A stretch of DNA of 64,000 nucleotides from Bryum argenteum (lineage: Eukaryota > Streptophyta > Bryopsida > Bryales > Bryaceae), in contig CM073323.1 of NCBI GenBank assembly GCA_037043015.1, positions 22,100,758 through 22,164,757 of the forward strand, in the 5' to 3' direction. The position numbers and the translations under genes are program-made. Shown here piece after piece: positions 2,554 through 63,991 of this stretch. Below the pieces are notes generated by a model that saw only the letters and a program-made list of their open reading frames with translations, had not been told where the DNA came from and did no database searches. Position 1 is the first letter of the stretch. Every line of letters begins with the position of its first letter.

Positions 2554-3543
2554 TTAACCCCTAAACGCCCGAGCCTATTTTTAGTTGAAAAGCACATTTC
2601 CATAGAAATCGTCATATATGAAAATCAAGAGAAGCTATTAAGATCTCAACCGTACAAACTTGTAATAGACTTATCCAAGATCATGTGGACCAAAGTTTGA
2701 GTCATGAGGCCTTATAGATTGGGAGATCATAACATATTAATATCAAAAACAAACTGCAAAATTTCATCATTTTCACTTTGAGGTGGAAATGCTACCAATA
2801 TACCTATTGCAATGAAAAAATCACCAACTAGAAAGATGTTCACCTTCATCTTAATAAGTCCTTTACCCAACAAAAATTTATCAAAAAAATTTCTTGGCTC
2901 AAATAAAAGCCATGCGATGGTAAAAAGTACCGAACATTTTACAAAGGAAAAATAGTCCAAAACTAGACCCTTTGCATTCAATTTCATGCCTTATCTTCAA
3001 AACAACTTCGATCTTGTTAAGGTTTCTACCACTTAGACTAGACTCTAATTGGAGGCCATCCCAAAAAATTAAGTTGAAATCCAACGGTGGATGAGGGAGA
3101 TATAGCTCCTCAAATATCATCCATTTTCTCACTTTTTTTGTTGACAAGACATCATTGCAAATCCAATAGCAAAATCATTTGGATCAAAAAACTTCTCACT
3201 ACAAAGTTGTTAAGAATCACCTTAAGATCATGACCATGAAAAAAAAAAAAAAAAAAACCATGAAAAACTATTTCTAACTTCACATAATTGGCTTGCAATG
3301 GTAATACATGCCCCATGCTTGGAAACCCAAAAACAAGAGTTGTCTTCACTAAAGTGCATTCCATTAATTCATACTTTATTGTATGGGCTTGGAAATTTTA
3401 CAACACAAACTAGACTTGATTTGGAACCTAATCCAAGTGATTTCATCCGAAACGGACCTCGGATGAAGAAGATATGGCTCTTCAAAGTTTTTGATGTACA
3501 TTCAAAATGTCGTTTTTCGACATCGTGGGCGTTTACGGGTTAA
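2554..3543. mobile_element. TTAA-flanked non-autonomous DNA transposon, family A copy 1 (990 bp)
   Basis: The left end reads TTAACCCCTAAACGCCC (2554-2570). The right end reads GGGCGTTTACGGGTTAA (3527-3543), its inverted copy with one mismatch. Between them there is no transposase frame. The interior is AT-rich, includes an A run at 3240-3257, and is clearly homologous to 60432-61399, where phrases such as GATCTCAACCGTACAAACTT and CAACTAGAAAG are shared. TTAA immediately outside a CCC... terminus is the arrangement of piggyBac elements. A TA target duplication (Tc1/mariner-type) cannot be excluded because TTAA contains TA. Confidence 0.7.
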
Positions 3544-4568
3544 AGTCTACTAGTTTTTAAAACCTATTCAGAAATTTCTCCAAGCCAAAATCAAACAAGA
3601 AGCATATTACTGACGACACAAGTATGCACTCAAGGATCCCAAAAACAACTCTAGAAGGTATTTAAAATTTTCAATTAAAACATCGTAAACAAGCAAAACG
3701 AAAGAATAGTCAATGGTAAATGGTGTGTAAAGTAATCGTCATATGGCAAAAGGAGTTCATATTTTATCACAATATTGTTGTAGGCTTTATATAAAGCTCA
3801 TCCATCCATTCGGAAAATTCATGGAATTGGTTTTTAAGCACTCTATGGCTAAACTACAGAGGTTGGTTTTTCGAGCAAGTTACCATAATCGGTACAAGAA
3901 AAACTTTGCAAAATGTTGAATTTCAAAATCATGCAACTATTCCAAAACAACCGATTTGAAGGAACTAAAATTTGTTGTGCTCATGTATTAGGACATCTGA
4001 AAGTTTAAGTACCCATGACCAATAAGAGACAATGTCCTAACACGACTTAAATGAACATATTTCTTAGGCCATAAATGTAAGAATGAGTCACATGCCCTAA
4101 GTTTTTGGCCCTGAAACAAACACACATTAACACACATTAGAAAATATATATGTGCTTTGATACTTTTCAGATAAGCTCTCTCCTCTTAAAAATTCCCCCA
4201 CAAAACTGTGGAAGGAGACATATCTACCTAATTTCAACAAGTCACAAGAGAAAGGACTGCTCCCAACTCATTGTGAGCAGCACACATTAGAATTTATGAT
4301 TTCAATACTGGTCTCTTAAATTTCTAGCAATATTTAACCTAATCCTGATATCAACCAACTGAGCAACACTACTGCGCTTATGCTTCTCAGCAAGACAGCA
4401 GGAGAAATGTCTTGAAAATAGGATAACATCAAATTGCAGGAGGTTGTCTTCAACAAATCGGTGATTCAAGTCGTACATGCTACTGCACGGGGCCTCAAAC
4501 AAAACTCATAATTCTCACATCTTGCCTACAAGAGAATTAAGCGATATCACAATTCCTTTCGGGCTCCA
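3544..4568. other. intergenic region and 3' flank of the UXT gene
   Basis: No gene seen. The right part (about 4300-4568) is probably the 3' untranslated region of the minus-strand UXT gene. The left part is AT-rich with nothing recognisable. Confidence 0.5.
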
Positions 4569-7498
4569 TCATGCCCGCAAATCTTTTCCAAAACCGGCTT
4601 TGCCCCAAGGAGATTGACCAATATTCGTACCGTCCTCAAGAAGCGAATCCGTCTCGCTGCTCTCGTCCAAGTTCAACGGTTCAGATAACTCTTCTTCTTT
4701 TGGAATCTGAGCATCCATACACAAGTTTAGATTCCTGGGAACTAGTATTTCACCAATTCCCACATTTTATGTAAAGACGAAACGCACAGCACTTGACATC
4801 AGTCAAGGTTAATGAGGGCAATCATACAATATGCTATAAAGTGAAGAATCAGACCTGGGTAGATATTATGGGGATCTCTTCTGCTTTCTGCTGGCTTTCT
4901 GATATGCACGCGTAGGAATATGAAACCATCCCACACACCGCTATCAAAATTCCACAAACATTGCGCCAGCTGAAGGGGTTCTTGAGAAGAATATATCCGA
5001 AGGCCAAAACCAAGCATGTCTTGAGGTGTCCAAGCACTTGATACGTCACAGCTGATGTCTTTCCAATGACTAAGAATGTGCTGAAGTTGACTGAAACGGA
5101 TATCATACATGAAAGCACGATGAAAAACTGTCACATCCCACAAGCCACAGTAAGAAAATCTCAACACCATCTTTATCGCCGCTACTAGTGATCACCGAGT
5201 CTCTCTTTAGTAAGAAAGTACGAATCAAGATAATGAACTTCACGATACGTGGCATATACAGACGTGCCGGTAGTACGATAACGATTTGACAGAAAGAAAA
5301 TAGATTGCGAAGGACTATCGGGAAAAGCCTTAAAGAGAGGAAAAATTGCAAAGAAGAACCTTATAAGGAGATTCTCCTCAAGACGGGAACAATGGCAACG
5401 AGAATGCCCCTGCTTCTGCCTTAGAGGTCCCCAAGTTGTCTCTCACTATAGACAAAAACGCGATCTTCCCTACCCAAAAGATGGTGTAAACTCACCAGAA
5501 CAAACGGATTATAGTCGAAGCTGAACACGTTCTGATTCGTCAAGGCTGCATCAAGGAAAGGCCCCGTAATACACAAGGTGGCAGCTTGATAAAGAGCGGA
5601 CTGGTACAAAAGCTGCGTAGAAGATACCTTGAACCGCTTCTGAATGGTGTTGGTCATCTGGTACCTTGGAGCTCAAGAAACAGAACCTCCAAAATAATGA
5701 TATAGAATTTGTGAGACATCGACATGCAATTACAGAAGTCGGCTAGAACACTGAACTATTTCAGCAAGTCCATGAGTTACGTTAACCGTGCAACAACATT
5801 AATATATGTTCCTCAAGCTTGCGTAGAGAGGATACAATTTGTGCTACGCATGTAGTCACAATAGCGAAACAAGATATCACAGACCCAAGGAGATTGAGCT
5901 GCAAGTCTGTGACCGTCGCAATTCCCACGCCCAAGAGTAACAACGCAATTGAGCCCTGGATCCTCTGACTGCCATAAGCACAATGTTATACGCTTAGTCC
6001 GATTGTGATGTTCACAAGTCCTATATCAGCTGAAATTGTATGAAAAGTGGGAAAACTAAAACTTGTCTGAGAAAGTAATCATTATTTAGATACATGATGA
6101 TATGTGTTCTTGTGACAAGAGTATCATGGGCTTCCACAGTGAGTATCGGTCCCAACGACCCATGAAACAAGGCATGATCTGAATACAGAAAGGTGAGAGG
6201 AGATGTTCTTTGGGCAGAGACCTGAAGCGTTTCCTGTAGAAGACTGTTTCGAGTAACACTGTGCACGGGATGATTGCAAGCTTTGTCATCTGCGATGAAG
6301 TTGCACATATTACTCCTCGAATTCACCTCAAATGTTCGTGAGCATTGCAGCAGGTCTAAAGATCCTAAAAGCCCAAGACCAATAAGTTCGTAGTGAACGA
6401 TGATTGTTACCAAGATAGTCACGATTATATAAGAAGGAGAACTAATCACACTCAAAAACTCATAAGTTACAAATTACCTGATAAAAGCCAACCGAGTTGA
6501 AACCCAAGCTCAAATTCAACAGCCCGATAGAAATCCCATTGAGTATAGCAAAACCAATAACCGTACGTGAGTCGAACGGTTTGTGCTCAAATAGTTTCAA
6601 CCATCGAGCAACATGAAGGGAACAGTACGTCACTCCTAAATGCCAACTAGTCAACGTGGTAGCTGCACAAAAGATCAACGACAAATCAGAACCGTCATTT
6701 CAAAAGCACTAATGCCGGTCACCTCAGAGTGTACTACACCATTACTCAACTCACCGCACTGGTTGTTCACGCGTAATACTAAGCCAGCAAAACTGTCAAC
6801 ATCAAAACGGTGCTATCAAATGCAGTCTAAAGCTTAGTAAATGTATATCGACCATGGTAAACCTTGAACAACTCACTCCACAAAGCGACAAGAATACAAA
6901 TCTTTCCTTCAGATATATTCGATATAGATCGTCAATCTTCATACAAAAAGCACTACCTCTATATTTACGTCACGCTGGTTCTAGAAAATTGTACAGAAAG
7001 AAAGAAAATAGACATCCGAACCAAAATAAAGCAAACCGCTATTCGTTTCTGCACTGCAAAGGCTCCGCTACCAGACCTATTGAAAAACTCAAGAAACGCT
7101 CTAATCATGAAAAAAGAAAGAAACAATGACATACACACGCCTTTCTAAGTTACATTCTAAATGCCATCGATGATCGATCAAAGAAATTTCATAACCGGAG
7201 CTCCATCAACCCCGAGGTCATGTTGCAGCAATCGAGGAAATCTCAAAGTAGAATTTGCTAACACAATTGCGAATACTCCCGTTTCTTCCGACAGCATTTC
7301 GATTTTCAAAAGATTCCTCCATTTTAACTATTTACATTCGTGAAAAAATCAAGAGATCTGCTGAAAAAAATGCAAGAGCGTACCGAAACAGAAGCCGAGC
7401 GTGGTAATGAGCGTCTTGTTGCAGATGACGATAGCAACAGAGGAAATCACGGACAGGCTCAAAGCGCCAACAGTACCAAGCCCGCCCTTGTCCGCCAT
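4569..7498 (-). CDS. UXT: UDP-xylose transporter (UXT-type nucleotide-sugar transporter), 7 exons
   Basis: Golgi/ER antiporter of the NST/TPT (drug-metabolite transporter) superfamily, predicted to move UDP-xylose into the lumen in exchange for UMP. Exons on the minus strand: 7384-7498, 6478-6662, 6222-6289, 5836-5968, 5496-5657, 4855-5127, 4569-4706. All junctions are GT-AG and the frame is kept, giving 357 aa, which is the size I recall for Arabidopsis UXT3. Motifs seen: FATTLTSWHL-like block (residues 38-47), FEHKPFD, LNLSLGFNSVGFYQ (about 88-100), MTKLAIIPCTVLLET, TNTIQKRFKVSSTQLLYQS, and SVNFSTFLVIGKTS followed by TYQVLGHLKTCLVLAFGY. The order is typical of about ten membrane helices. 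The cytosolic tail (exon 7) is acidic and ends KDLRA, like the KDFQA end of UXT3. It holds an [DE]xxxLL motif, ETDSLL. The start is the first ATG in frame with the first helix. Substrate is inferred from family similarity. Confidence 0.93.
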
Positions 7499-9562
7499 TG
7501 CAAAGCCACACGAAGAAGATACTTCTCACAGTTTAAAAAAATTTCTCCCACCCGTCCGCATCTAGGTCTCCGCAATCACAGGGCATCATCGTCGGCATAC
7601 TCAAACCACGGCATCATTGTTGTTCGCGTAAAATGCTCGTGCGAAATTCAAACAAGGAAGTCAGTCAATCAAGGCACGGGAAGCGTGAGCGGGAAGAAGG
7701 AGGCAAGAAGGGAACGAAGCGAAGGCCATGAAACAGTGGCGATGGCGATGGCGATGGCGAGCAAGCGAGAGAGACAACAACATGCGGAAGGAAGGCTGAC
7801 TGGTTTCGTCGGTGATCTTGACCGGTCTAGCCTGTAACTAAGTGTAACAATAGAATAGGCGCCGGCTTGACCGGTCCGCGTAACCCTAACCGAGTTCCTG
7901 CTGTTCAATACACTCGTTTTCACTATTAGTAGCCTATACTATTTCGCACGTATCACTTTTTGGATGAAAGGAACTCTTTCTTTGGTACTCAATAAAATGT
8001 GATGTGCATAGCATTCTATATTTATTAGAATAATTTTTATCTATTGACCCTTCAAATTCCAGGGATATTCCAAATGAAGGGTGCCAAAATAGCCTCTCTT
8101 TCTATTCTTATAGTAAGGTGAATCTGTTACTCAAATACAATTATGTCTAACTTGTATGTTCCTACATTCACCAAATCTTATTTTTCATTGTATACATGGC
8201 ACTAATAACTAGGTTTGGCTTTGCTTGGTTTACCATTTAATGCATTGCGTTACAAATGTAGTATTAGTATGTGTATCAACCCATGTCATTGAAATCAAAA
8301 AAACAACTATTGCACAAACAATAGTGAAACATAACATGTTCAAAATTACACACCTTTTCTTCACCTAGAGTAATTACTTTCACTTATTCATGAATCAATC
8401 ATCCATACCAAATTAGAGTGAAGCTTTTCTGATGAACTATTCTTGACATATTTGTACATCACCACACATGACACTTGACACATCTCACAATACTCATAGC
8501 ATATTGTAAAGATCCCACAAGAGAATTGCTCGACCAAAAAATATGGTACGTATGTGTAGGTACCCAATAAGACAAGAGTCAACCCTATCAAATATTCAAA
8601 ACCTCACACTTTCCAGATCTACAAATTCATGAGTGAGATTGTCAGAAAATGGTAAAACAGAATGAGTATATCGCCTTTCTAAAATACGCCCAACACTTTT
8701 ATCCCAAGTTCCCAAAATCATGATTCCAAGTTCGTTCACCAACTGACTGCGGTGAGTTGCCAGTACGTTGCTAGTAAAATCTGTGGACAGAGTGCCATCT
8801 TTCCAATGCAGAATACAAAAAAGAACTCCACTGTGCAGAAAACCCGTGTGAAGCATTATGCACATTGTTGTGCAGAAGTAGACAACACTGTTGAAGTCAA
8901 AAGGTCGACTGTGTTGACATAAATGGGTGTCATACGAATGTAAATTCTGCCTGAAAGTGTGACGATTGAAGATAAGCATCAAGCTTCATGTGTGACAATT
9001 CCATAGGGACCACAGTGAAGACGACATTCAGAAAGAGAGAGAAAGAGAGTGTGTTCTACAGTATCCAGAAATCAATATATTACAGAACAGTAAAACCCTA
9101 AAAAACGAATCGAGATAGTAGTACCCCTGCGGAAGGTGTTGGATTCAGGAAATGGAAGATATAAAATTTAAGCTGCATTGGAGAATTGTGAATCCTGCAG
9201 TCATCGAGGTGGTGGCCTGTGACTTATTGAAAACCTAATGGAGGTAATCAGATTGAAGAAGAAGATGATGAAGAAAGAAGAAAGAAAAACAATCACCTGG
9301 AGAAGGCGGTAATCCCTATTGAATTGGCTGCTGCTACTACTTTTGTGTCATTATCCTTGCCATCACCATCTCCACAACGTGTGAATCCTGCGAAAGAATG
9401 CAGATCTTGCAATGAAACCCTAGCACACTAGCCTGCTCGCTCGCAATCTGTATTGATTCTCTCTTCTCTATAATCCTCTAGATCTGGCTGCCTGCGTGAG
9501 CGAAAAAAGCTGGTGATGAGCATGAGCAATTCGTAGATGGATCCATTGTCTTGTTGCTTCCT
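7499..9562. other. UXT leader/promoter and 3' flank of the next gene
   Basis: 7499-7900 is GC-rich and lies just upstream of the minus-strand UXT start. It includes a short (GCGATG)n run near 7739-7766 and a telobox. 7900-9000 is AT-rich with no gene seen. 9000-9562 is probably the 3' untranslated region of the minus-strand transporter that ends at 9563. Confidence 0.5.
7882..7889 (-). promoter_or_regulatory. telobox-like motif upstream of UXT
   Basis: AACCCTAA (TTAGGGTT on the gene strand) about 385 bp upstream of the UXT start codon. Telobox elements (AAACCCTA) are common in plant housekeeping promoters. Function here is inferred. Confidence 0.35.
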
Positions 9563-10495
9563 TCACTTGCAGCGCCTCTTGGCTTCGCTATAAAGTACAA
9601 CCCCGAAAACAGTGAGAGAGTAGCCAAGCATGCCCATGGCGGAGACGGGATTCCGGAAGAGGAGAATGGAAACCACGACCGCCACGGCGCCCTTGGCATT
9701 CCCGAGCACCTGCAGAGTCAATGCACTCGTATGCTTGGTAACGAGGAAGTTCGTCAGATTGACGAAATACGCCATAGCCGAGTTCACAATGAGAAGCAAC
9801 AAAATGTAGCTGTCTTGTCTCGCCAAGGCAATTGTGATCCCTAACACGTTAGGTTCCAAGATCAATGTGGCGGGAAGGAGGACAACGACGGCGACGGGAG
9901 CCATGTACAGAAGCAGGTTCATGGAGTTCAGCTTCTCCCCTTCGGACGACAGCAAAATCCCCTGTAACACAGATTTGAGCGCCCTCGCGGCAGTCGCCAG
10001 GACGCACATGATGAATCCGTACAAGTGGAAACTCGGCTCGCCGCCGCTGGCAATGACGACGCCCGTCACGACAGGGACGAGCGTGGCGTACACCATCCAA
10101 GCCTCCTGCCGGAAGGTCATGACGTAGGCGAAGACGGCCGTGAAGAAGGGCGTGGTGGCGCCGATTGCTTGGTTGAATGAGACGGGCAGGAAGCGGAGGG
10201 AGATGTTGCCGCTGACGACGGACGTGCAGAAGATGATGCTGAGCGCCACAATTTTGAGGAACTGCGTGCGCGATCGAATCGTTTGCATGGGCACCACCTT
10301 CATCCACGCGATGGCCACGTAACTGAAGAGCGCGCACGCCGTCATGTGGCACATGGTGAGGAAGATGGGGAATTTGAAGCCATAGTTGCTAAGCAGGTAC
10401 TTGTTGAGCAGCAGCACGCCAATGTTGGAGAAATACCAGGCGCCGATGAGCGCCACCGTGAACACCGACGTCGACATCTTGGGCGCTGCTCCCAT
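9563..10495 (-). CDS. UDP-uronic acid transporter-like NST/TPT protein, intronless
   Basis: Intronless frame of 310 aa, very close in sequence to the plant group containing Arabidopsis UUAT1 (At5g04160) and At3g11320, which I recall at about 308-309 aa. Members are Golgi antiporters for UDP-glucuronic/galacturonic acid or related nucleotide sugars. Landmarks: [18 protein letters not shown] (about 23-40), [81 protein letters not shown] (about 174-193), [20 protein letters not shown] and a C-terminal SEAKRRCK. The last is lysine/arginine-rich like the KKxx-type tails of the family. About ten membrane helices are expected. The start at Met1 adds six residues (MGAAPK) before a second Met that matches the usual start. 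The coding region is GC-rich and has no introns, unlike most genes in this window. Exact substrate is not determinable. Confidence 0.92.
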
Positions 10496-11880: not shown

Positions 11881-11899
11881 GATGGTTTATTTGGTTCGA

Positions 11900-14776: not shown

Positions 14777-14784
14777 TTAGGGTT
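14777..14784 (+). promoter_or_regulatory. telobox-like motif in the VPS54 leader
   Basis: TTAGGGTT 66 nt upstream of the VPS54 start codon. Sequence seen directly; regulatory role inferred from the telobox class. Confidence 0.35.
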
Positions 14785-28117: not shown

Positions 28118-28785
28118 AGGCCTTTGCTTGGTGGTTGGGTGGCATGGTCCTCAATAAAAAGGTTGTAGGCTCCATTCTCCATGCAATTGCAGTGTTCCCC
28201 TCAACTTTGGTGAAAGTACTAGGACCTCATTGTATGGGGACCCCAATGTTCTTTGGGAAACAACATGTTGATTTCCCCAAATGCACTAGTTGGTAACTAG
28301 GAACTAACATAGTCATCCTCCCAAGAGGGGTTAGTAGTCTCAGTATTTATGTTATGACCTCAGATATTTAACCCTTAAACGCCCGAGCAAGCCCGAGGGG
28401 CTTGATTCCAACAGAATCTTCCCTGTAGCTCTCATTGTACTCAACGTTTCACTTATATTTTGATGTCAAACTGGTCACCTTCTTCTGATGCATTCAAAAA
28501 GTGAATTTTCACAATTCAAATCACAATTTGTATGAATGATTTTGTGGTTTGAAAGGATTGTGGTAGGTAGGTTGGGGTGGTACATAACCTTGTAGGAGGT
28601 TGCAAGCTCATCATTGATTGGTCCATTCATGATGCCCAAGTTCAAAAAGTGCACTATTCATGATGCCCAAGTCCAAAAGATGCTGTGATCCAATTTTGGG
28701 CTGCCCGTTTTAGACCCCAAGGGCGTTTAAGGGTTAACACACAAGGATTGATTGGTTGAACAAACGGTTTATTTCATGGCAGCCT
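28118..28785 (+). mobile_element. SINE copy interrupted by a TTAA element
   Basis: The left part (28118-28367) begins CCTTTGCTTGGTGGTTGGGT, like the tRNA-related head of the SINE at 45197. It follows that copy through ACCTCATTGTATGG-GACC and GAGGGGTTAGTAGTC. The sequence then breaks at the TTAA element. After 28737 the SINE appears to resume with AAGGATTGATTGGTTGAACAAACG, matching GAGGATAGGTCGAACGAAC of the other copy. The insertion is therefore younger than the SINE. Confidence 0.6.
28368..28737. mobile_element. TTAA-flanked MITE, family B copy 1 (370 bp)
   Basis: Left terminus TTAACCCTTAAACGCCC (28368-28384), right terminus GGGCGTTTAAGGGTTAA (28721-28737), a perfect 17-bp inverted repeat. 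It is non-coding, and about 97% identical over its whole 370 bp to 63110-63479 (about 12 differences by eye). It is inserted in a SINE copy. Confidence 0.85.
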
Positions 28786-29039: not shown

Positions 29040-29102
29040 TCCTTAAACCCCTCGTGAATTTCACGAGTGCAGTTTGTGTTGAGGAGGGGATTTGTTGCAG
29101 CA

Positions 29103-30980
29103 ATGGCGACCACATTCTTACATTCCGCCATTGCAGGCACTCGCCTGCACGCCGCCATTGCCTCATCCTCTACTCCCTCGTCCTCGCATTCCCAGCGCAA
29201 GGCATCATGGCGCCCGATAGCAGCATCCGCAGCGTCGGAGGTCGCGGCCGTGACCGCCGCGCCCCCGCAGCAGTCCGTGGAGGCCCCGGCGGGGAGCTCC
29301 GCCACGCAGATGAACCGGTACTCGCGGCGCGTGACGCAGCCGAAATCGCAGGGCGCGTCGCAGGCCATTCTGTACGGCGTCGGGTTGAGCGAGGACGACA
29401 TGAACAAGCCCCAAGTGGGAATCTCGTCGGTCTGGTATGAGGGTAATACCTGCAACATGCATTTGCTTAAGCTTAGCGAGGCTGTGAAGGCCGGCGTGCA
29501 AGAGGCTGGCCTCGTCGGCTTCCGGTTCAACACCGTCGGCGTCAGCGACGCCATCTCCATGGGCACTGAAGGAATGTGCTACTCGCTCCAATCGCGTGAT
29601 TTGATCGCCGACAGTGTGGAAACTGTCATGGGTGGACAGTGGTACGACGCCAACATCTCTATTCCGGGGTGCGACAAGAACATGCCCGGGGTCGTCATGG
29701 CTATGGGGAGATTGAACCGTCCCAGTATCATGGTCTACGGTGGCACTATCAAGCCCGGCCATTCCAATGGCCAGACGTTCGACATTGTCTCCGCATTCCA
29801 ATCCTACGGTGAATTCGTTGGAGGTTCGATGTCCGAGGACGAGCGCATGGACGTGGTGCGAAACTCCTGTCCTGGCGCGGGCGCCTGTGGCGGCATGTAC
29901 ACGGCCAACACCATGGCGTCCGCCATTGAAGCTCTCGGCATGTCACTCCCCTACAGCTCCTCTATCCCCGCCGAAGACCCGCTCAAAATCGAGGAATGCA
30001 AGCTCGCAGGGAAGTACATTCTGGAGCTTCTGAGACGCGACCTGAAGCCGCGCGACATCATCACGCGAGCCTCCCTCACGAACGCCATGGTGATCATCAT
30101 GGCGCTCGGAGGCTCCACGAACGCTGTACTCCATTTGATCGCCATCGCGCGCTCCGTGGGCGTGGACCTCACCCTCGACGACTTCCAGGACGTCAGCGAC
30201 CGAACGCCATTCATCGCCGACCTCAAGCCGAGCGGCAAGTACGTCATGGAGGATCTCCACAAAGTTGGCGGCGTGCCCGCGGTACTCAAATACCTCCTCG
30301 AGAAGGGCCTGATCGACGGGAGCTGCATGACGGTAACAGGCAAGACGATCGCGGAGAATCTCGCAGGGTGCCCACCACTCTCGGAGGGGCAACAAGTGAT
30401 CATGCCACTCGAGAATCCGATCAAGAGCACGGGTCACTTGCAGATTCTGTGGGGTAATTTAGCGCCAGAAGGCTCAGTGGCGAAGATCACAGGGAAAGAG
30501 GGGCTATACTTCAAGGGTCCAGCGCGCGTGTTCGAGGGCGAGGAGGCGATGTTGGAGGCGATCACGGCCGATCCAGCGAGCTTGAAGGGGACTGTGATCG
30601 TGATCCGAGGTGAGGGACCCAAGGGCGGCCCAGGAATGCCCGAGATGCTCACGCCCACGAGTGCCGTGATCGGCGCGGGGCTGGGCAAGGAGGTCGCGCT
30701 CCTCACCGACGGCCGATTCTCTGGCGGCTCCCATGGCTTCGTGGTTGGGCATGTGTGCCCGGAAGCGCAGGTGGGTGGACCGATTGGACTCGTGCGCGAC
30801 GGCGACGTGATCACCATCGATGTTGAGAAGCGGAAGATCGATGTGGACTTGTCGAATCAGGAGCTCGCGGAGCGCAAGCTCATGTGGAGAGCGCCGGCTT
30901 ACAAGGCCACTCGTGGAACTTTGTACAAGTATATTAAGAATGTGAAGTCTGCTTCTGAAGGCTGCGTGACTGATGAGTGA
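29103..30980 (+). CDS. DHAD: dihydroxyacid dehydratase, plastid-targeted, intronless
   Basis: Dehydrates 2,3-dihydroxy-isovalerate and 2,3-dihydroxy-3-methylvalerate, the third common step of valine, leucine and isoleucine synthesis in plastids. The frame gives 625 aa from Met at 29103; an upstream in-frame Met at 29067 would add 12 residues. I prefer 29103 because MATTFLHSA begins a typical Ser/Ala/Thr-rich transit peptide of about 65 residues. Mature landmarks: NTCNMH (Cys117), PGCDKNMPG (Cys190) and [15 protein letters not shown] (Cys262), the three [2Fe-2S] cluster ligands of the family. Others are [21 protein letters not shown] and [13 protein letters not shown] with the active-site Ser. 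The C terminus follows the family to [11 protein letters not shown]. Length is normal (Arabidopsis about 608 aa). Angiosperm orthologues are multi-exon as I recall, so the single GC-rich exon is unusual, though the frame is intact and every key residue is present. Confidence 0.96.
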
Positions 30981-38890: not shown

Positions 38891-38957
38891 CATGGTCTCT
38901 TTGATTATAGTTGGATGGAAGCAAATGCCTTCACTCAACTACAATCAAGGAGACCAT
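38891..38957 (+). other. near-perfect short hairpin, candidate small-RNA precursor
   Basis: CATGGTCTCTTTGATTATAG (38891-38910) extends into GTTGGATGGA. It pairs with TTCACTCAACTACAATCAAG and GAGACCATG (38930-38957) across a loop of about 10 nt, with roughly 28 paired positions and about five mismatches or G-U pairs. The size fits a compact plant miRNA fold or a tiny foldback repeat. I do not recognise a known miRNA in either arm. Confidence 0.4.
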
Positions 38958-39240
38958 GAGGCTCACAAATCACTGATTTGCTAGTGTTCAATCATTTAAA
39001 AAGAAAGGAGGAAAAAAGGGACGATGAAAGAGAGAATGACGAGGATTTATATTGGAGAATTGAGCTTCAACTTGTCCCAGTCCAAATCCACTTTACACTA
39101 CAAGAGCGACCAAGCCACTCAAAAATTCATTTGTGATTTATCATGGTCACGACTCTAGGTTCATAGTGCAAAGGAACCCTCAATTGTCCAAAACCTCAAT
39201 TGATTCTTAAGGAGCGCAAGGCTCAAGGCAGTAAGGCTCT

Positions 39241-43012: not shown

Positions 43013-43281
43013 TTAACCCCTAAAGATCCACGATGTTTTGGGAGCTTGAAATCCCAACACTGACCACTATGTACTAATGCGGGTACGTCCAATATTTTTG
43101 GAAATTTTTGATAACTTCAACCGTAGGATCTTAAAGTAGACTACCATAGGTAGTAGTGTGAAAATTTTCAACCGTTGGATCATCATTGAATGTGACATCA
43201 TAACATTTGAAGTTGACTGTAAATTTTTTTTGGCCTTGACCTCAAAAACCGAATCGGTGGCCGTGGTCGTTTAGGGGTTAA
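43013..43281. mobile_element. TTAA-flanked MITE, family C (269 bp)
   Basis: Left end TTAACCCCTAAAGATCCACG (43013-43032), right end CCGTGGTCGTTTAGGGGTTAA (about 43261-43281), inverted with some mismatches. Non-coding interior. Outside the element, an imperfect phrase of about 22 bp containing TGGACAACGAG occurs on both sides (ending 43012 and about 43305). Confidence 0.7.
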
Positions 43282-45531: not shown

Positions 45532-47756
45532 AGAGCACCTATTGTTGGGCATTTATGGCATAGATGGAGCTATCAATGGATATCTTGTATTTTTTAATTT
45601 ATTTCTTGAATCAAACAATGTAGTCGAAAAATGCCTCATGAACAAAGGTAGAATCTTGAGCTATTTTGTTATAATTACGGCATTGCCAATAAAGAAGCAC
45701 TCTCAAAGGGGACTATTTTGTTAGGGGTCAAAAATTTCAAGCCCATGGTTGAGGAGATGAGACATCAAACTTCCTATGGGTGCAACAAGTAGGTCTTTGA
45801 TTGCGAAATTTTTGGAGCATGGTATCTATTAGTATATGAGCGAACATTGTTGCCTTTGGCTATTCCTCGGGCACCTTGCACTTTGGAGTAGAGCGTTTAT
45901 CGTATCATGAAGATCTACTAGTAATTGCTCAATTCTTGACACAAGAAAATTTATGTGTGTTGTGCTCTCCTTGCTTGGATTGGCTTGGTACAATAGTAAC
46001 TTCAGCTTTGGCACTTTTAGCAACAAAGCCTTGCACGCCAAAGTTGGCTTATCATCCCTATCTACCATGCGTAGACTAGACTCACTAGAGGTTTCCTTAG
46101 ATAAGTTTTCATATTTTGTGATATTTTTTAGCATTTATAAGAGTGTTAGTACTTCTTATATGTAACAAGTAAGGCCCAACCTACAACCATTAACTCTATT
46201 CCATGTTTATAGGAGGTACAATTTAAGGGTGGTAAACCTTATAAAGTAAGCAAGAATCTGGAGTCCTTGATACTTGGGGGGGGGGGGGGGTGTGGTTCTC
46301 TTTATAAGTGGTTCTAGCGTATGTACTATAGAGGTGATTTTTCCTTACTTTAACTCTTTGAGGAATTATACCTATAGTACCAACCAAGAAGTTTATGATT
46401 AGAGCGTTGAATTTATATAAACATCAAATATTCCTCTATTCTCAAATAATTTCTACATCACCAAGATGGTACAATTTGAAAATGATGAGGTTTGCTAGAA
46501 TGATAAGGGAGTTAGCTTTACTAAGGTTTTGAAAGGCGTCTATAACGGAGGATACGTAAAACTGTATATACACATAGGGAAAATTACAAATAAAAACTAA
46601 ATACAACCTTAAACTTCTATTGAAGTCAACCAAAGGTATGCTAAAAAGGAAAACTATGGTAATTTGAGATAATAGATATATGGTCAATAAAAGTGGCTAC
46701 ATTTTTAACAACGCTTTAATTAAGAGTTTGAAAGTCCAAATTTATACTTCTTGGTGGGTATTGTACGTTAGTCGACAATTTCTATAATAATTTAAAGATG
46801 GCACCTTCAAATGGTTGGAAAAGTCCATATAAAATTTAAAGAGTTGGTGCTAAAGGGGTGCACATGAACATTTTTATAATTTTATAAGGACAAAAATAAT
46901 TGTTGTGATGACCGCACTCAACTTGGCTGCACAAAGGTTAATGTTGTTGGAATCTATTTCTTTGAGAGTTATTCAAAACATTTTCACAAATACTCAATTT
47001 TTTATTAGTTATGATTCAAACCAACAATTGATGATCCTTATTTTAAGGGATTCATTTTCTAACTAAATCAAAGTGAAGATTATTAGTATTTGTGAACTTT
47101 CAAACCAAGAGTAGAATGAGATACCAAGTAGTTTGAATATAACAAAAAGTGTGTAGGAGAGAACTAAGTTGTTACATTCACACTGAACTCTACTAGAAAA
47201 CACTTTTCCATCAAAAGGAGGCATGTGTACGTAAAGTCTTAGGACAACTTAATATGTTTAAGCTATTTATGGGGTCTAAACCCTAAAGAGGGGAAATTCC
47301 TCTCATATACTCCCACTGTGGCTTTGTCCCATAATGCCACATCCATAGGTTCTCTTGAATTTACCCCATGGGATAGATTTGAGATAAGCTATCAATCTGA
47401 CATTATGGGACATAGAGAGTAGTTGCTTTGTTCCTTGAATTTGGCTCGAAAGGCCTAACATGGGAAGTGAAGGCCAGTTCTTTGAAAATATATTGTGATA
47501 AGTGGGAGACAAGCAATGTCATGCCCAACGCTTCAAAATTTCAGAGCTACAAGTAGGGGAGGCTAATCCAAGGGCCTTGAGAAAGTTGCTTAATTTTATC
47601 ACAAAAGTATTATATCAAGAAAAAGTCTATCACAAACAAATTAAAAGCTTGGAATAAAGCTAATGTCATAAATTGTCCACATGGCCTTGTTTTCCTTTTA
47701 CAAAAGGCACCCAAAGGACTTTGCATATGGAGGAGTTGGCCCACATTACATGAGTT
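45532..47756. other. gene-free stretch with a G15 run
   Basis: AT-rich. A run of 15 G lies at 46276-46290. Frames at 45829-46134 and 46442-46687 have no recognised motif. It may be a decayed transposon but I cannot assign a family. Confidence 0.4.
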
Positions 47757-48192
47757 TTATGATGTGTTCTCCAAGCAACCCATTGAATTATATAGGCTCA
47801 CGACCCATAGAACGACATTATAACTCAAGTGAAACAACATGAAACTTTTAGTGCAACTACATGAATATTTGAGTACTACCACATTAACAGAATTTAAGTT
47901 TGATGATGTGTTCTCCAAGCATCCCATTGAGTTATATAAGCTCATAACCCATAGAACGACATGATAATTTAAGTGAAATGACATGAAACCTTTGAGTGCA
48001 ACTACATGAATATTTGAGTGCAACTACATGAAACCTTTGAGTGCAACTACATGAATATTTGAGTGCAACTACATGAATATTTGAGTGCAACTACATGAAT
48101 ATTTGAGTGCAACTACATGAATATTTGAGTGCAACTACATGAATATTTGAGTGCAACTACATGAATATTTGAGTGCAACTACATGAATATGT
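47757..48192. repeat. 22-bp minisatellite and larger duplication
   Basis: From 47994 to 48192 the unit GAGTGCAACTACATGAATAT plus TT (22 bp) repeats nine times, one copy with a one-base insertion. Upstream, a block of about 130 bp (GATGTGTTCTCCAAGCA-CCC then CCCATAGAACGACAT) is duplicated at 47760-47880 and about 47905-48010. Its last part seeds the minisatellite. Confidence 0.85.
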
Positions 48193-55747: not shown

Positions 55748-56819
55748 CTAAATCACACTCGATCTGGAGGCTATTGACGTCCACGCCCGCGAGCGGCGTA
55801 TCCAGAAGCTCGCTTGGGGCATGCATCCGTCCACTACACAGATAGCAGCCAGTTCCAGTCCTTGGACCAAGTATAACAACAGTGCAAATTAGAGGCCAGT
55901 TGTACACCGACTTGGATCTATCTAACAGTCTTTCCGTTGTTGCGGTGCTCGAGTCTACTACATTCGAGCAGCCAGTCCCACTAGCTGGTGCCTACGCCCA
56001 GCATTGCATCGTCCGAGCTCCTGGCTCCTCCTCGAGCTAGCTAGTGATAGGGCACCCAATCTTGTCAATATGTAGGCCGGCTTACACACGTACCGTCTTT
56101 TCTCCGACGCGGAACCTGCCTCTGCTGCCACAGGAAATACCCCTCTTAGCCATCAGCATTATTATCCTTCAGTATGTACCACTAGTACGTTGGCTGATCA
56201 AGTACTGAAAGGTGAGGAGGGGTGGGTACGTAACTGATTACTAATATAAGGAACAAGTGTGAGAGGACGGTACCAAGATCATTTTGCAGAGGGTCTCCAC
56301 CCGCCTTCCCACAAGTGATTGTTTGCTTGCAGTATTGACGGTCGTGGAGGTAATACCGCTATTGTTGCGCTGCCCACTGCAGTCTTCCAAAGTCCAGTCA
56401 TTTAGCCAATATTGGATTGCGGAACACAAGTTAGAAGACACGTCAACCATGGTTAAAAGTATTCTAAGCAGTATCCGAAACAGGGCACACAACATATACA
56501 ACCTACAGGAAAAAGTGATGGTGGGGTGAGGCTACTCGTATTCTTATATCAACAGAAGTCGAATGAAAGCGGAGAAATTCCATTCACCGTGCATGGTCCT
56601 TGCTTGCTTTGGTTCAGATGGCAGAGACAACTCTTTACAAACTTTGACGAGATTCTTTCGAAATTCACTCATGTTCAACAGCCTTAGCCAGGATGTAGTT
56701 GGAAGCACTTAAACCTCCCTACGTGCTGCTGCTGATGAGCGCGACACTCCACCCATTTCCACAACGCGGTTGTCTTATGGGACTCTGTCGAACGTCGTAC
56801 AGACACTACAATCAGAGAG
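55748..56819. other. moderately GC-rich stretch without a supported gene
   Basis: May contain earlier exons of the minus-strand gene ending at 55453, but I cannot chain any with confidence. Frames at 55695-55907 and 56241-56529 have no recognised motif. Confidence 0.4.
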
Positions 56820-57023
56820 ACATTTGCCCTCGGAGGAGGAGGTCGTCAGATAGACACCACAAACACCACAATCATACAGACATTTGCCCTCGGAGGAGGT
56901 CGTACATTTGCCCTCGGAGGAGGTCGTACATTTGCCCTCGGAGGAGGTCGTACATTTGCCCTCGGAGGAGGTCGTACATTTGCCCTCAGAGGAGGTCGTA
57001 CATTTGCCCTCGGAGGAGGTAGA
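56820..57023. repeat. 24-bp minisatellite, six perfect-phase copies plus one diverged
   Basis: The unit ACATTTGCCCTCGGAGGAGG plus TCGT starts at 56880, 56904, 56928, 56952, 56976 and 57000. A diverged copy lies at 56820. The 24-bp period keeps reading frames open: + frames give PSEEVVHL or RSYICPRR repeats, the minus frame gives TTSSEGKC repeats. Confidence 0.9.
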
Positions 57024-57124
57024 CGACATCAAAGAGGCAAATGTTCATGTTTTTACTATGCATTTTCTAATATGGTCATACATTCCCATTGAACTTGAAG
57101 TCACAGTCACAAACATGTATTTGT

Positions 57125-57221
57125 CCTATGGCCATTGAGGTAAAGACATTACGAATAGACGCTCTATTCACGCCAATCTCTTATTGAAGATTGGAGTTCT
57201 TTTATATATATATATATATAT
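57125..57221 (+). mobile_element. SINE 3' tail followed by (TA)n
   Basis: GACGCTCTATTCACGCCAAT and TTGGAGTTCTTTT match the end of the SINE at 45197-45531. A (TA)n run of about 19 bp follows at 57203-57221. Confidence 0.55.
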
Positions 57222-57989
57222 CACAAACATGTTGAACACGACAATTTAGACATATATTAGCGAAAGTGTGTCATGTAAGTCAACCCTGATCGACAAGTGT
57301 GAATTCCCTACCCTGCTATTGTTTGGGCCGAGACATGAGTTGCTGTGACAGGAATCTGTTGCTGGAATCACGAACAAAAGTATAGCATCATTGTGCTTAG
57401 CAAGATTGTGGGCCTGCACAAAATAGTAGTTAATAGTCATGATCACCATGGCTAGAACTGCATTAAATAAGCCATCTAGAAGATGATTGTTTACGAATGT
57501 AGACCACAAACTTACAATCAACGTTAAAGAGATATACATAATTATGTATCAATCAATAAGTTTCCGTACTTTATCAATAATTTCTCAAGTTTGTGATCAA
57601 GCTCAAACAAGTTACATAAGAAATTATACTAGAAGGAGGTTTATAAATCGTTGCAACCGTATACTTGGAAAAGTAAATATAGATATTTAAAGTTTAGAAT
57701 TCATGGCACTTATGCATGATGGAAATGGTTGAAGTGATGGAGCAAAATCATCAAAGAAGAGCACGTGGAATAACTTACATGGAATAACTTAGGTGTGTTG
57801 AATTAAAGGCAAAAACGGGAGCACTTTTTGTAAATTAGGTATTTGATTCTTCACTTTGTTACATATGCTTTTAAGTAATTTGTTGAAGTTTACTTTTATA
57901 TTCATATATTGTATAAATCATAGTAACTGAAAGAGCTACCACTTCATAAGCTCAACCTAAACAATAAGCAACCACAATAACTACAACAA
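57222..57989. other. gene-free stretch
   Basis: AT-rich; short frames only and no motif recognised. Confidence 0.4.
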
Positions 57990-59140
57990 GTTTTCACATT
58001 GGCAGTGCAAACAAATGTGATTTCTTGGATGATTGAGGATGAGGCCCTCCATGGCGTTAATGAATTGGTATCTCAAACTATCCAAGCATTCCCCCAACAT
58101 TTTAGAGGTTCACTTCATGCTAATTGTATCGAGGCTTATTTTTGGTGAGCTCGCAGAAAGGGAGCGATTTGTTGGGGATACTCAAGAAAGTGTGACCATT
58201 TCAAATAGATGTAGTAGGTATGGATTGTGAGAACGACTCCTTTCCTAAGACACATTTGGGTGTGGTCAAAAACGCTCAACTTGGTTCTAATACCTCTATC
58301 CTCGGTTGCTTCTTCCTGTTTGAATAGGAAGGAGTCAAATTTTCTCCTAAACTGCTCATTGAACTCCATATACTTTGTCTACAATATTTTGCTTGCTCTT
58401 TACTCTAAATATAATAGAGAATATGCTTTCTCCTCACTCTAAATATAATAGACAATATGTTGACCTTGAAGATGAAAGTCTCTTTACTGAGAAGATTACT
58501 TATTGATGGATGCAACAGGTTATGGATGCTGATAATATAGTCTCATTAACATGACCTAGCGCAATGCTTTGTATTCTTAAAAAAGAGAATTAATGGAATG
58601 AAAGTAACATACCAAGTAGGGATTGAAAATCAGGTGAAAACTTGATAGAAAACATTGATGAGTCAACATTTTCTAGTTAACTTAGACCAGGGAAAACTTT
58701 GGGATTCACTAGAGATACTGTAATAAAAAATGTAGATGTAGTTTTGGAGGGAGGGATGCTATGACTATGGTGATTAGAATGTCTTGTAGTTGTAGGACAA
58801 TGATAGAGAGTCCATGTTGATTTTCACCAATCCTATTTAGAATTATCCTATTAGAGGATTGAAAGATAAATTTCTAAGAGTGACCTATAGAACAAGGCCT
58901 AGAGGTTGGATTGATGATCCTATCTTTCTTGAATTACTAAATGATCCTCGTTAATTTCAACCTGACGCCCATAAGAGAATGAGAAAAATTTGGCTAGACA
59001 ACTATAGTAGTCATAATCTCATATTCAGACTAACTAAAGTTTTGAAATCGAATGAGATGATCTTTGAAATATCTTCCCCCTCAAGTAACTAGCTGACACT
59101 TTTATTATGTCAAGAAATTTAAGATGCATGGACTATACAG
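57990..59140 (+). pseudogene. pogo-like (Tc1/mariner superfamily) transposase relic
   Basis: Pieced across frames on the + strand: ISWMIEDEALHGVNELVSQT, a QHFRGSLHANCIEAYFW block, ITY-WMQQVMDADNIVS (about 58490-58550), and LIENIDES near 58650. Then come KTLGFTRDTVIKNVDVV, YPIRGL-type residues near 58850, TYRTRPRGWIDDPIFLELL (about 58880-58935) and KIWLDNYSSHNLIFRL (about 58990-59035). The order resembles DDE_1 transposases of pogo/Fot1/jerky type: first Asp in NxDES/TH, a GWxxxxxFxEWL segment, then LDNxxxH. Many stops and frameshifts are present. Terminal repeats were not found. Assignment comes from motif order I recognise, not from a database search. Confidence 0.5.
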
Positions 59141-59608
59141 TGGGATGCAAAAAAATCTAGTCTAATAGAACAAAATCCTTGGCAAAATGATCATTGCTTT
59201 ACATGCAATGATCACGGAAATTCACTAATCAAGCAAAAATGAATCCTTGCAATTGGTGCTAGATGCAGTAGAAGATGTGAACAACTTGATTGGATGCTAC
59301 CAATATGTTACATGCAAGAAAGTCTATAATTAGATGTGGATTAGCATGTGATGTCGATTGAACATGGAAAGTTGAACAATTATTTGAACACTAGCAAGAG
59401 ATTGTTTATAAACATGAAATTAATTATAGAAGAGCTAAAGTAACCCTTTATGCTAGGGACACTTACATGTTATAAAATGTGTTATATAAAATATTGACTA
59501 TGTATAGTATTTTATAGTATTTCTCATTTCAAATTTTCACCAATGCATCTTGCATGTTTTATCGGTTGTCTTTTATTATCAATTTATCATGGCTTTTATT
59601 TCAACAAA

Positions 59609-59768
59609 ACACGTAATTTGTTATAATGGGAATATTCATATTATCAAATTGATGACACTTGAGCTTGAGTTGAGCCAAATGTACTGTATGGGTACATTGA
59701 GCTCAACTCAAGCTAGACCCACATTTCTCAAAATCAGTGAATAATACCATTATAACGAATTACGTATT
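59609..59768. mobile_element. foldback element with arms of about 75 bp
   Basis: The centre AGCTTGAGTTGAGCC...GTAC pairs with GTAC...GAGCTCAACTCAAGCT around a 7-nt loop near 59690. The outer arms ACGTAATTTGTTATAATGGG and CCATTATAACGAATTACGTA pair with several mismatches. No coding potential. It could be a MITE or a small-RNA hairpin locus. Confidence 0.55.
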
Positions 59769-60431
59769 ACAACTTATGATTCTCTTCAAATTATTCTATT
59801 TATATCTTTGGTTCTCATTATTTTTAGGTGTGCCTTTGTATGTGACCACTTTGTAATGTTTGCTAGGAATTTCTATGTTTTTTTATTGAACATTTTGGTT
59901 TTTTAAGACTTTTTGATGTATGCCTCAATCTTTATGTTCCCATAAGTGAGTCTTATGTCTTATGCAAGTCAAATGTTTCATTGCATCTACCTTTATTTCC
60001 ATATTTTTCTCATGCTTACTCTCTTCTTTTAGGAATTTTCAACCCTCATCATGCTTTTCCTTCATTATTTTGGTATATTCTCAAAATGGATTTTGGCTTT
60101 CTAGATGTATGAAGCATTTATGAGCATTTAGTCAAATGTTACACTAATTGTAACATAATAAATTCTTCTTCTTTCTTATAATTTCCATGCTCTCACATTT
60201 AGTGTTATGGTTTGAAAATAAGTGTTACAACACTGTCTAAGGTGACATATGACATGTAGTCTTATGATTCACAATTAACGTGTGTAAAAATAATCGACAA
60301 CTTTTGTGTAGTGAAATATTTAAGGACAAGTGAGACTCCCTCTAACTTCACACCAAAACATCCAAGCCTATATTTTGCTACAAAACACATTTTTAACAAA
60401 ACTGTCATAGATAGAATTGGAAAATGAGTTA
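59769..60431. other. gene-free stretch
   Basis: Very AT-rich, no feature recognised. Confidence 0.4.
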
Positions 60432-61399
60432 TTATCCCCTAAATGTCCTTGGGGTATTTTTAGCCAAAAACTCATTTTCAAAAAAAGTGATATAAATGAA
60501 AATAAAGATAAGCTATTCAGATCTCAACCGTACAAACTTATAATAGACTTGTAGTAGATCATGTGAACCAAAACTTGACTCATGGGACCTCATAGATTGC
60601 GAGATCATAACCAATTAGTGCACAAAACAGGCTACAAAATTTACCATCATTTCCACTTTGAAGTGAAAATACTACCAACATGAAATTTGCAATTAAAAAA
60701 TCAGCAACTAGAAAGTTGTTCATCTTCATCTCAAAGACACTCTTGTACCAAAAAAAATCTTGGCTCAAATAGTAGCCTTGTAGTCGTGAAAACTGCCAAA
60801 AATTTTACAAAGGAAAAATAGTCCAAAACAAGACCCCTCGCACTCAAATCCATGCCTTTTCTTCAATATATACTCGATTGAGCCAAGGTTTCTACCACTA
60901 AAAATAGACTATAATTGGAATCCATCCCAAAAAATAAAGTCAAAATCTAACGGTGGATGAAGGAGATCTAGCTCTTCAAAAATCATCCATTTTTTCACTT
61001 TTTTCATCGTAGAAACATCATTGCAAAGCCAATACCAAAGTTATCTAGATCAAAAAACTTCCAACTACAAAGTTGTTGGGATGCATCTAAATATCAAACT
61101 TATGAAAAAAAATTCATGAAAAACTATTTTAGATTTCACATAATTGGCTTGCAGTGGTAAAACATGTCAAATGTTTGAAAACCCCAAAACAAAAGCTGCC
61201 TTCACTAAAATCCACGCCATTTATTCATACTTTATTTTATGAGTCTGCAATTTATACCACATAAATTAGACTTGATTTTTGACCTAACTCAAGTGATTTT
61301 GTCAAAAACGAAGTTTGGATGAAGAAGTTATGGCTCTTCAAAGTTTCTGCCCTTCATCCAAAATGTCGTTTTTCGACACTAGGGACGTTTAGGGGTTAA
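60432..61399. mobile_element. TTAA-type non-autonomous DNA transposon, family A copy 2 (968 bp)
   Basis: Left end TTATCCCCTAAATGTCC (one change from TTAA), right end GGACGTTTAGGGGTTAA (61383-61399). The interior is collinear with 2554-3543: GATCTCAACCGTACAAACTT, TCATAGATTG-GAGATCATAA, CAACTACAAAGTTGTT, TGGCTTGCA-TGGTAA and a final ATGTCGTTTTTCGACA. No transposase frame. Confidence 0.7.
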
Positions 61400-61757
61400 G
61401 GTATTGATCGTACAAACTTGTAGTAGATATATTGTGGGTCATATGAACCAAACTTTGTGTCATGATGCCTCATAGATTGCAAGATCCAAACATATCAATC
61501 CTAGAAAAAAATCAAAAAACTCATCGTTTTTACTTTGAATGAAAAATTCTACTAACAAAGGTACTAGTTCATCGTGAAAACACCCTTGACCAAGAGATAT
61601 GTCAAAAGAAGTTCATTGCTAATATAATAGCCTTGCAATGGTGAAGATTGCAAAAAAAATTTCAAAGAAAAAATTGTCCAAAAGTTGACCCTTTGAACTC
61701 AAATCCATGCCTTAACACCTTATCATTGTCAATTGGGTCAAGGTGTTTACTACTCAC
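61400..61757. mobile_element. truncated further copy of family A
   Basis: Directly after the complete element the sequence restarts with GATCGTACAAACTTGTAGTA, then GCCTCATAGATTGCAAGATC and ACTTTGAATGAAAAATTCTAC, in the order of family A, fading by about 61750. The left terminus is absent. Confidence 0.5.
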
Positions 61758-61972
61758 ACTACTAGAATTTGACCCTGTTTGCTCCGTTTGTGTTTTCATA
61801 AAAGCCACGTTTGGGGAGTAGCTTCAACTACATTTCAATACGCTTCTTCTACAACGTACTTTCAAAAGCTACATTTCAATGAAAATATGTTCGAACATAG
61901 TTCAAGCTACTCCTATAACAAAGCTTTTATGAAAACACAAAGGTAGCAAATCGGGTCAAATTCTAGTAGTGC
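61758..61972. mobile_element. foldback MITE with CACTACTAG termini (215 bp)
   Basis: Begins CACTACTAGAATTTGACCCT and ends AATTCTAGTAGTG. The arms pair over about 70 bp, e.g. GTGTTTTCATAAAAGC with GCTTTTATGAAAACAC. The CACTA start resembles CACTA-type tips, but I see no clear 3-bp target duplication, so the family is uncertain. Confidence 0.6.
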
Positions 61973-62074
61973 AAATCTATACTTTAATTGCAATACATGT
62001 CAAAATGTAAAGTTGGAATCCAACTGTACATGACAAACATATAGCACCTAAAAATCATCCAACTTGACAACACC

Positions 62075-62266
62075 CATGAGTCTCTAACTTATACTTTCAA
62101 ATCGGGCCCAAGGGCTTCATACTTGGGCCCGACCGAAACTTCAAATTATCCTATGTGGCATCCTAACACCTATGAGTCTTTAACTTATTCTTTCAAATCG
62201 GGCCCAAGGGCTTCATACTTGAACCCGACCGAAACTTCACATTATCCTATGTGGCATCCTATGTGG
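62075..62266. repeat. 96-bp tandem duplication
   Basis: Two copies starting near 62075 and 62171 share TTTCAAATCGGGCCCAAGGG, CTTCATACTTG, CCCGACCGAAACTTCA and ATTATCCTATGTGGCATCCT. The last phrase is partly repeated again at the end. Confidence 0.8.
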
Positions 62267-62440
62267 CACTGTTTTAGCGCCAAAATGTTCGGGCCCAAGT
62301 GATGCAATTGGGACAAGGTTTACCCCGGCATGAACTTCCCAACTTGGGCCCGAACTCTAGGAGTTGAATCCGGCCCGCTCTCATGCGGGCCCCACCTGTG
62401 TATAATGTGGGCCGTAGGCCTACTTGGTACTCTTGACTCG

Positions 62441-63991
62441 TCAGAAAGAGAGCACACTCCCGAGAACCATCGCCTCTGGTCGCTTCTGGAATCGATGATT
62501 TTCTCGTCTATACCAGTAACTCCCAGGTTTACTATCTGTAAAGTACTGGTTCCTGAAAAGCAAACCATTGCAGAAGCAGAGCCATTATGCCCGCAACCTA
62601 CCCAGCATGTACATGAACACATATAGAAAGAGGAATGCAGAAATGAACCTGCAGAATGAGCAACACCCAACTTGTCAACGAAGTAATCAAGTCTGGAAAC
62701 GTCCCTCCTCGTTCCTGACCGCTACAAATGAATCACAGCTTTTCATAAAAGAATACGTACGTCGCCTGCTGCAACTGGCACGCTGATATACGTACACGGA
62801 CATGCAAGCGCAGGTCACGGAACCACTGTCAGTAAGCAAGCACAGATCCATTTTCAGAAGCGAAAACAGCTTGGGAATGGATACTTGTTACAGTAAAAAC
62901 ATTGGGGAATCATCACCGAAAGAGTACTAAGCTTTTCTTAACCCTAGTACTACTTACTGACGCCATTCTCTGCAGAGACGTACATGCTGGTGCTTACCGA
63001 CAGCCTTCGATGAACGACGCGTAGCAAGGTGCATGCCCGCAGCTTGTTCAAAGCATGTGAAAGAGAACAAGGAAACATGCATGAAGATAGATAGAAACTC
63101 CAGTCCTTTTTAACCCTTAAACGCCCAAGCAAGCCCGAGGGGCATGATTCCAATAGAATCTTCCCTGTAGCTCTCACTGTACTCAACATTTCACTCATAT
63201 TTTGATGTCAAACTGGTCACCTTCTTCTGATGCATTCAATAAGTGAAATTTCACAATTCAAATCACAATTTGTATGAATGATTTTGTGCTTTGAAAGGAT
63301 TGTGGTAGGTAGGTTGGGGTGGTACATAACCTTGTAGGAGGTTGCAAGCTCATCATTGATTGGCCTATTCATGATGCCCAAGTTCAAAAAGTGCACTATT
63401 CATGATGCCCAAGTCCAAAAGATGCTGTGATCCAATTTTGGGCTGCCCGTTTTAGACCCCATGGGCGTTTAAGGGTTAAGTGAATGAAGTATCCGTTTGT
63501 AATGCTAATATCCTGATGGCCATTGGACAAGGGGAAATCAGAACAATACTATTTCCCCCTCTCGAGGGTGTACACTATAACTACGCTAGTTTCTAGCCTA
63601 GTTACTAGTGCCTTGAAGATACTTGACATGGGATAACATGCATGAACAAATTACTCGACAGCATGAACATAGAATGACCTGAATGAGCAACGCCCCAATT
63701 GTCAATGGAGTAATCTTTGGCGCATATGAGTAATTAAGTCCCGTTACGGAAAGAACGTTCAGCATTCAGCATCGAAACAGTACTGCGACTCCTTTTACCC
63801 TAGTACTACTCACGCCTCTCTACTCGCGGACCGAAGTCTGTGGATGTTAAGGATTTTCGGAAGACTTACCCCAATGGCGGCGTGGCGGCGTGGACAGGAA
63901 TCACATGATATCCCCCAAGCTGGGACTTACCACGCCGCTTGCGTGGATGAATGCCGTCGAAGTTCACATCCAACGGCGAAGTGTCGCTCAT
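62441..63991 (-). CDS. possible small unrecognised gene, two exons
   Basis: A minus-strand ATG at 63989-63991 opens a frame reading MSDTSPLDVNFDGIHPRK and on to GGYHVIPVHAATPPLG, ending at a GTAAGT donor (exon 63870-63991). A second exon beginning at 62552 after TTTTCAG keeps the phase and reads NQYFTDSKPGSYWYRRENH then RFQKRPEAMVLGS before a stop near 62441. Spliced, this gives roughly 77 residues. The intron of about 1.3 kb contains the family B TTAA element. Alternative GTAAGT at 63930 would cut exon 1 short. I do not recognise the protein. More exons may exist, and the phase match could be chance. Confidence 0.3.
63110..63479. mobile_element. TTAA-flanked MITE, family B copy 2 (370 bp)
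   Basis: Perfect 17-bp inverted ends TTAACCCTTAAACGCCC and GGGCGTTTAAGGGTTAA. Same length as, and about 97% identical to, the copy at 28368-28737. Non-coding. Confidence 0.85.

Follow-up and report, generated by a model that had tools for sequence, protein, structure and literature searches.

The piggyBac element of the moth Trichoplusia ni uses TTAA sites, carries terminal inverted repeats and encodes a DDD transposase (6x67; PMC7351741), for which D268, D346 and D447 are given as the catalytic aspartates (PMC7351741). The elements and genes that we describe here from the moss Bryum argenteum share these characters and the protein domain family, but they differ from the moth element, which encodes a protein of 594 aa, in their plant host and in their stop-to-stop frames of 831, 897 and 1,008 codons (L030, L032 and L033, respectively). 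They are also unlike piggyBat from Myotis lucifugus (9c0f), which has a bat host and a chain of 578 residues. Among miniature elements, CMITE from Acropora corals is likewise tied to piggyBac-like transposons and its copies can form tandem arrays, but in the account of CMITE the interiors are more conserved than the ends, whereas in the moss the ends are common and the interiors differ (PMC2872659). Miniature elements assigned to piggyBac are also described in land plants, namely in angiosperms, where the passage on them gives the superfamily name only (PMC10004981), whereas here same-ended transposase-coding elements are present in the same genome. Further plant records are a fern repeat table with 1,230 piggyBac elements (PMC6890710), a grass repeat table with one (PMC8319324), a statement that piggyBac was isolated from plants as well (PMC10813416) and the naming of PiggyBac among plant superfamilies (PMC10794571). 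Our literature search found no account of piggyBac in a bryophyte, which is weak evidence given its mostly open-access coverage; a report on the moss Physcomitrium describes Tc1-like elements that are close to those of fungi (PMC7466625).

The window, meaning the whole stretch of 64,000 bases that was analysed, is located on contig C3 of the 258.8-Mb assembly (25 contigs) that was used for the genome searches, and it contains five short elements (Table 1) jointly occupying 2,967 bases. These are almost certainly miniature, non-coding members of piggyBac that would be moved by the transposases of full-length piggyBac elements elsewhere in the genome. The superfamily itself is known; the host and the youth of the burst described below, not the kind of element, make the case unusual.

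Table 1: Elements and remnants in the window (window positions) and full-length elements elsewhere in the genome (locus numbers).
Position or locus	Strand	Feature	Ends or basis
2554..3543	+	non-autonomous piggyBac element, about 980-bp family, 990 bp here	tips TTAACCCCTAAACGCCC / TTAACCCGTAAACGCCC
28368..28737	+	non-autonomous piggyBac element, 370-bp family, very recently amplified	perfect 17-bp terminal inverted repeat TTAACCCTTAAACGCCC
43013..43281	+	non-autonomous piggyBac element, 269-bp family, resembles a deletion derivative	tips TTAACCCCTAAAGATCC / TTAACCCCTAAACGACC
60347..60431	+	left remnant of the older 980-bp-family copy hosting 60432-61399	boundary approximate; joined-flank alignments
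60432..61399	+	non-autonomous piggyBac element, about 980-bp family, 968 bp here, one end TTAT, nested	tips TTATCCCCTAAATGTCC / TTAACCCCTAAACGTCC
61400..61761	+	right remnant of the same older 980-bp-family copy	boundary approximate; same alignments, up to query position 666
63110..63479	+	non-autonomous piggyBac element, 370-bp family, second window copy	TTAACCCTTAAACGCCC at both ends
L029		full-length element, 5,701 bp	tips TTAACCCCTAAAGGCCC
L030		full-length element, 5,705 bp	tips TTAACCCCTAAAGGCCC
L031		full-length element, 4,950 bp, coding region split over two frames	TTAACCCTTAAACGCCC at both ends
L032		full-length element, 5,199 bp, one 897-codon frame	TTAACCCTTAAACGCCC at both ends

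Scanning the window with TTAACCCYTAAACG, a search pattern derived from the element tips themselves, and allowing up to three mismatches gave 17 places, which are the ten tips (seven with no mismatch, one with one and two with two) and seven others, all with three mismatches. Twenty first-order Markov windows contained in total no place at zero or one mismatch, 13 at two and 153 at three, and the seven other places are about what is expected from these simulated windows. Pairing of the ten tips yields five elements, which lie at the coordinates given by an earlier reading of the letters alone (the sequence-only reading), and the layout that it described, TTAA outside and CCC tips inside, was borne out with tips of the form CCC(C/T/G)TAAA. 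The TTAT end that it had pointed out is present as well, at 60432, as one of the ten window ends. The terminal inverted repeats comprise 17 bp including the TTAA and start with CCC; they are perfect in both 370-bp copies and mismatched in the other three elements. No protein of note is encoded in any of the five (the longest stop-to-stop frame has 105 codons), and they are therefore non-autonomous. Elsewhere in the window, positions 29067-30980 hold an uninterrupted 637-codon frame for a dihydroxy-acid dehydratase whose best matches are chloroplastic enzymes. Contig C12 has two PsaA/PsaB matches, and its PsaB protein comes closest to the PDB chains 8htu, 6l35/7xqp and 7ksq/7kux with 1,700-1,704 bits, ahead of 1,664.5 and 1,633.5 bits for the next ones. 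These entries are photosystem I structures of the moss Physcomitrium, and together with the dehydratase they make a moss the likely host on sequence grounds.

The interiors were compared after trimming 40 bp per end, using local alignment against 30 shuffles, and they fall into three groups: 2554 together with 60432, 28368 together with 63110, and 43013 alone. As whole elements, 2554 and 60432 are identical at 788 of 954 ungapped columns (1,004 columns in all), and 28368-28737 and 63110-63479 share 358 of 370 positions. Seven of the eight comparisons between groups stayed at or below the best shuffle score (one tie), the marginal exception being 43013 against 60432 with a score of 34 versus 30 for the shuffles. 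The interiors had been called unrelated, which is correct between the window groups but goes too far for 43013-43281, as this element is still similar to the first 240 bp of an autonomous family. A broader sample, the window plus 20 tip-bearing 10-kb stretches of contig C1 and thus a biased choice, contained 22 paired elements with interiors forming eight clusters and lengths from 80 to 990 bp. Four weak matches of 33-75 columns, three of them located at tips, were found across clusters, and the cluster of 60432-61399 includes 11 further copies. An 80-bp element with both tips (L026:4914-4993) is the shortest paired element.

Throughout the genome TTAACCCNTAAANG gave 7,863 + 7,978 matches (15,841), compared to 28 + 32 (60) for the reversed-pattern control, and TAACCCYTAAACGYCC tips were found 5,790 times with no match for the reversed pattern. 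TTAA is completed at 5,636 of the 5,790 tips (97.3%), with A, C or G before TAA in the remaining 154, and this is not what a TA-only transposase would give. A previous count of 55 T among 57 bases before TAA was replaced by these whole-genome numbers, because the sampled regions from the first 11 Mb of C1 had been picked for TTAA tips. A TA-duplicating transposase had been kept as an alternative in the sequence-only reading, and the count speaks against such a target. The wider form of this idea sees Tc1/mariner or PIF/Harbinger elements, with a duplication of TA or of TTA/TAA, that came to lie in TTAA-like sites by chance; TA, TTA and TAA are indeed all contained in TTAA and one window tip is TTAT, but given the T that completes TTAA at nearly all tips and a piggyBac transposase encoded in four full-length elements with such tips, we give it practically no chance. 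The TA-only and Harbinger readings were set aside on the base before TAACCC and on these autonomous elements.

The piggyBac transposase genes were found with the PF13843 profile, which resulted in 116 matches in the genome (775 first-look candidates, best E 7.4e-82) and in none in the 14 control genomes. Six rows have the identical score of 258.4 bits, and two of these six were fetched as L029 and L030. A piggyBac (DDE_Tnp_1_7) gene within the same tips, for which a genome search had been proposed, is present in four of the six transposase loci fetched with both sides (L029-L032), the tips being 4.95-5.7 kb apart. Between L029 and L030 the identity is 99.84% over 5.7 kb, with the homology starting exactly at TTAA; their left flanks differ, while the right flank of L029 consists of three fetched bases that are equal to L030. 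The 17-bp tips of L031 and L032 are identical to those of the 370-bp copies in the window. Regarding the remaining two loci, L034 has one tip only in the fetched stretch and a coding region in two frames, and L033 with its 1,008-codon frame showed no recognisable tips in the 6.5 kb fetched, where the best TTAA-bounded inverted repeat reached only 8 of 16 positions.

For twelve further transposase loci only the C-terminal side was read, with 2.1 kb each. A tip faces the gene in nine of them and a tip faces away in three; no gene-facing tip was seen in the one-sided stretch of L036, L042 and L046 (three of 12). In L038 the gene-facing tip is part of a 370-bp pair, which leaves eight of the nine as fair candidates. 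The two-sided elements carry the tip variants AAACGCCC and AAAGGCCC, and the one-sided loci show, beyond the core, the variants AAAAATCC, CAAGGCCC, AAGTGCCC, AAATGTTT, AAACGTTT and AAACGTCC as well as TTAATTGACATCC in L045. In the transposase loci L043 and L044 the tip is doubled (TTAACCCTTAACCCCTAAACG). Large repeats with outward-facing tips about 1.2 kb apart occur in L013-L016, with inverted-repeat structures in L014, L015 and L016; L015 and L016 are 97% alike over 4.1 kb, and L015:7213-8163 is a 316-codon stop-to-stop frame.

Four translated frames matched PF13843 with E values from 1e-75 to 3e-83. Compared to PDB entries, L030 matched piggyBat (9c0f) with 3.2e-28 and piggyBac (6x67) with 3.8e-25, and L032 matched them with 7.7e-24 and 2e-29, respectively, the similarity of both to T. 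ni piggyBac amounting to only 91-105 bits. In the printed alignments, judged by eye, the aspartates of the catalytic DDD in L030 and L032 align with those of 6x67. The catalytic domain also aligns with that of piggyBat, and for L032 this alignment passes through the C-terminal Cys-rich region, whereas the L030 match ends before it. Viral contigs searched for relatives of the L032 transposase, close ones only, gave no match. TTAA by itself is not specific to piggyBac. It is the target habit of Sola3 elements as well. A Kolobok paper, too, names TTAA 23 times (PMC6004289). That another TTAA-duplicating superfamily, Kolobok or Sola3, serves as mobiliser is nevertheless barely conceivable, as the tip-enclosed genes give matches to PF13843 and to the piggyBac structures from moth and bat.

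Empty sites were analyzed by aligning joined flanks to other copies of the same surroundings, that is to paralogous sites. From 11 spanning comparisons the five closest relatives, which are 85-95% alike, have one TTAA and no insert (L032/L020, L013/L034, L013/L023, L023/L034 and L023/L013). The comparison of filled and empty sites, also proposed beforehand, does not extend this result to the six more distant cases (73-83% alike), in which an intact TTAA is absent (L032/L026, L019/window 38934-39147 with TTCA, L017/L028 twice, 63110/L028 and L031/window 47671-47786). From the letters alone, a TTAA duplication looks the same as a TA duplication made by an A-starting element that prefers TTAA, and it is the identity of the transposase that decides. 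The assignment to piggyBac made by the sequence-only reading is upheld by the tip-bounded piggyBac genes, by the single TTAA in the closest empty sites and by the TTAA frequency at the tips. According to this model, full-length piggyBac elements elsewhere in the genome would encode transposases recognising the common ends (TTAA-CCCYTAAASG...), and the element would be cut out and then joined into another TTAA. By analogy to moth piggyBac, the encoded proteins would do the cutting in a hairpin cut-and-paste reaction.

From the shared tips it had also been concluded that one transposase cross-mobilises all families. A single piggyBac transposase mobilising every window family would agree with the outer TTAACCCYTAAA core common to the families and with the one domain shared by the four scanned transposase frames. 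We consider it unlikely, however, since tip variants differ from one transposase locus to another, and the window families, judged by their extended ends, are not all similar to the same locus. In the 370-bp copies, one end agrees with L031/L032 over 34-36 bp (92-94%) and the opposite end over 40-43 bp (81-85%); for 28368-28737 the two values are 34 bp (94%) and 40-43 bp (84-85%). The 269-bp element resembles the 5' part of L029/L030, with 71% over 134 columns for its positions 104-229 (E 1.7e-8) and 64% over 240 columns for its positions 1-222 (E 0.016); 43013-43281 has the look of a deletion derivative. Among the 980-bp copies, the end of the 60432 type (CGTCCTTGGGG) is similar to L044, with the first 23 bp of the L019 end identical to it by eye. 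Instead of a single transposase lineage, there are probably several, each with its own satellites. The 980-bp family does not appear cleanly assignable to one transposase lineage, because the left end of the 2554 copy matches one L031/L032 end over 21 bp (95%).

The element at 60432-61399 is nested within an older copy of its own family. When joined, its flanks can be aligned to copies of the 980-bp family, starting at their tip, with 66-69% in the longer matches, and the insertion point is an internal TTAA at family positions 85-88. This TTAA is present in the window copy 2554-3543 and, among the 11 other relatives shown, is kept in five and lost in six. As the older host copy is only 66-72% like its relatives, it is much older than the inserted element. 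The TTAT end of the latter would be a later point change. On contig C8 (G000:C8:9189775-9191106), a full 269-bp-family match ends by coordinates at 9190043 and a full 980-bp-family match begins at 9190040, with four bases in common; the last four bases of this 980-bp match are common with another 980-bp-copy fragment ending at family position 88, which is the internal TTAA also used at the nested window site.

The families also appear to differ in age. Of 2,814 candidates for 28368-28737, 40 places were scored, and at least 19, itself included, reach the full 668 bits; the rest of the 40 are 12 places at 664 and nine at 659 bits. Ten of the 18 other full-score copies were checked along with the window copy, and TTAA is present on both sides in 11 of 11, while the likeness of their flanks does not exceed 38% on the left and 42% on the right. 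These copies are therefore separate insertions and not duplicated segments, and the 370-bp family represents a very young burst. The relatives of 2554-3543 (40 places scored of 6,111 candidates) and of 43013-43281 (40 of 1,155) are 95-97% identical at each of the 39 non-self places, and with best scored relatives at 97% the window copies of the 980-bp and 269-bp families look older. Outside the window, G000:C3:23626759-23628350 contains a row of four adjacent 370-bp-family matches, two of which, next to each other, have four bases in common, as though one TTAA served both, although the second of the two stops seven bases before the family end.

In summary, it seems to us an evenly balanced question whether this moss harbours a living native piggyBac system, with several transposase lineages, at least one of them with near-identical full-length copies, with 370-bp satellites still jumping and with thousands of insertions. 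In animals, piggyBac is favoured as a seamless gene tool, and the moth element has been imported into plants for use as a gene tool (PMC10905368). A native and young moss piggyBac population would offer plant-adapted relatives, would give a natural case of satellites sharing ends and would test bryophyte descent against horizontal transfer.
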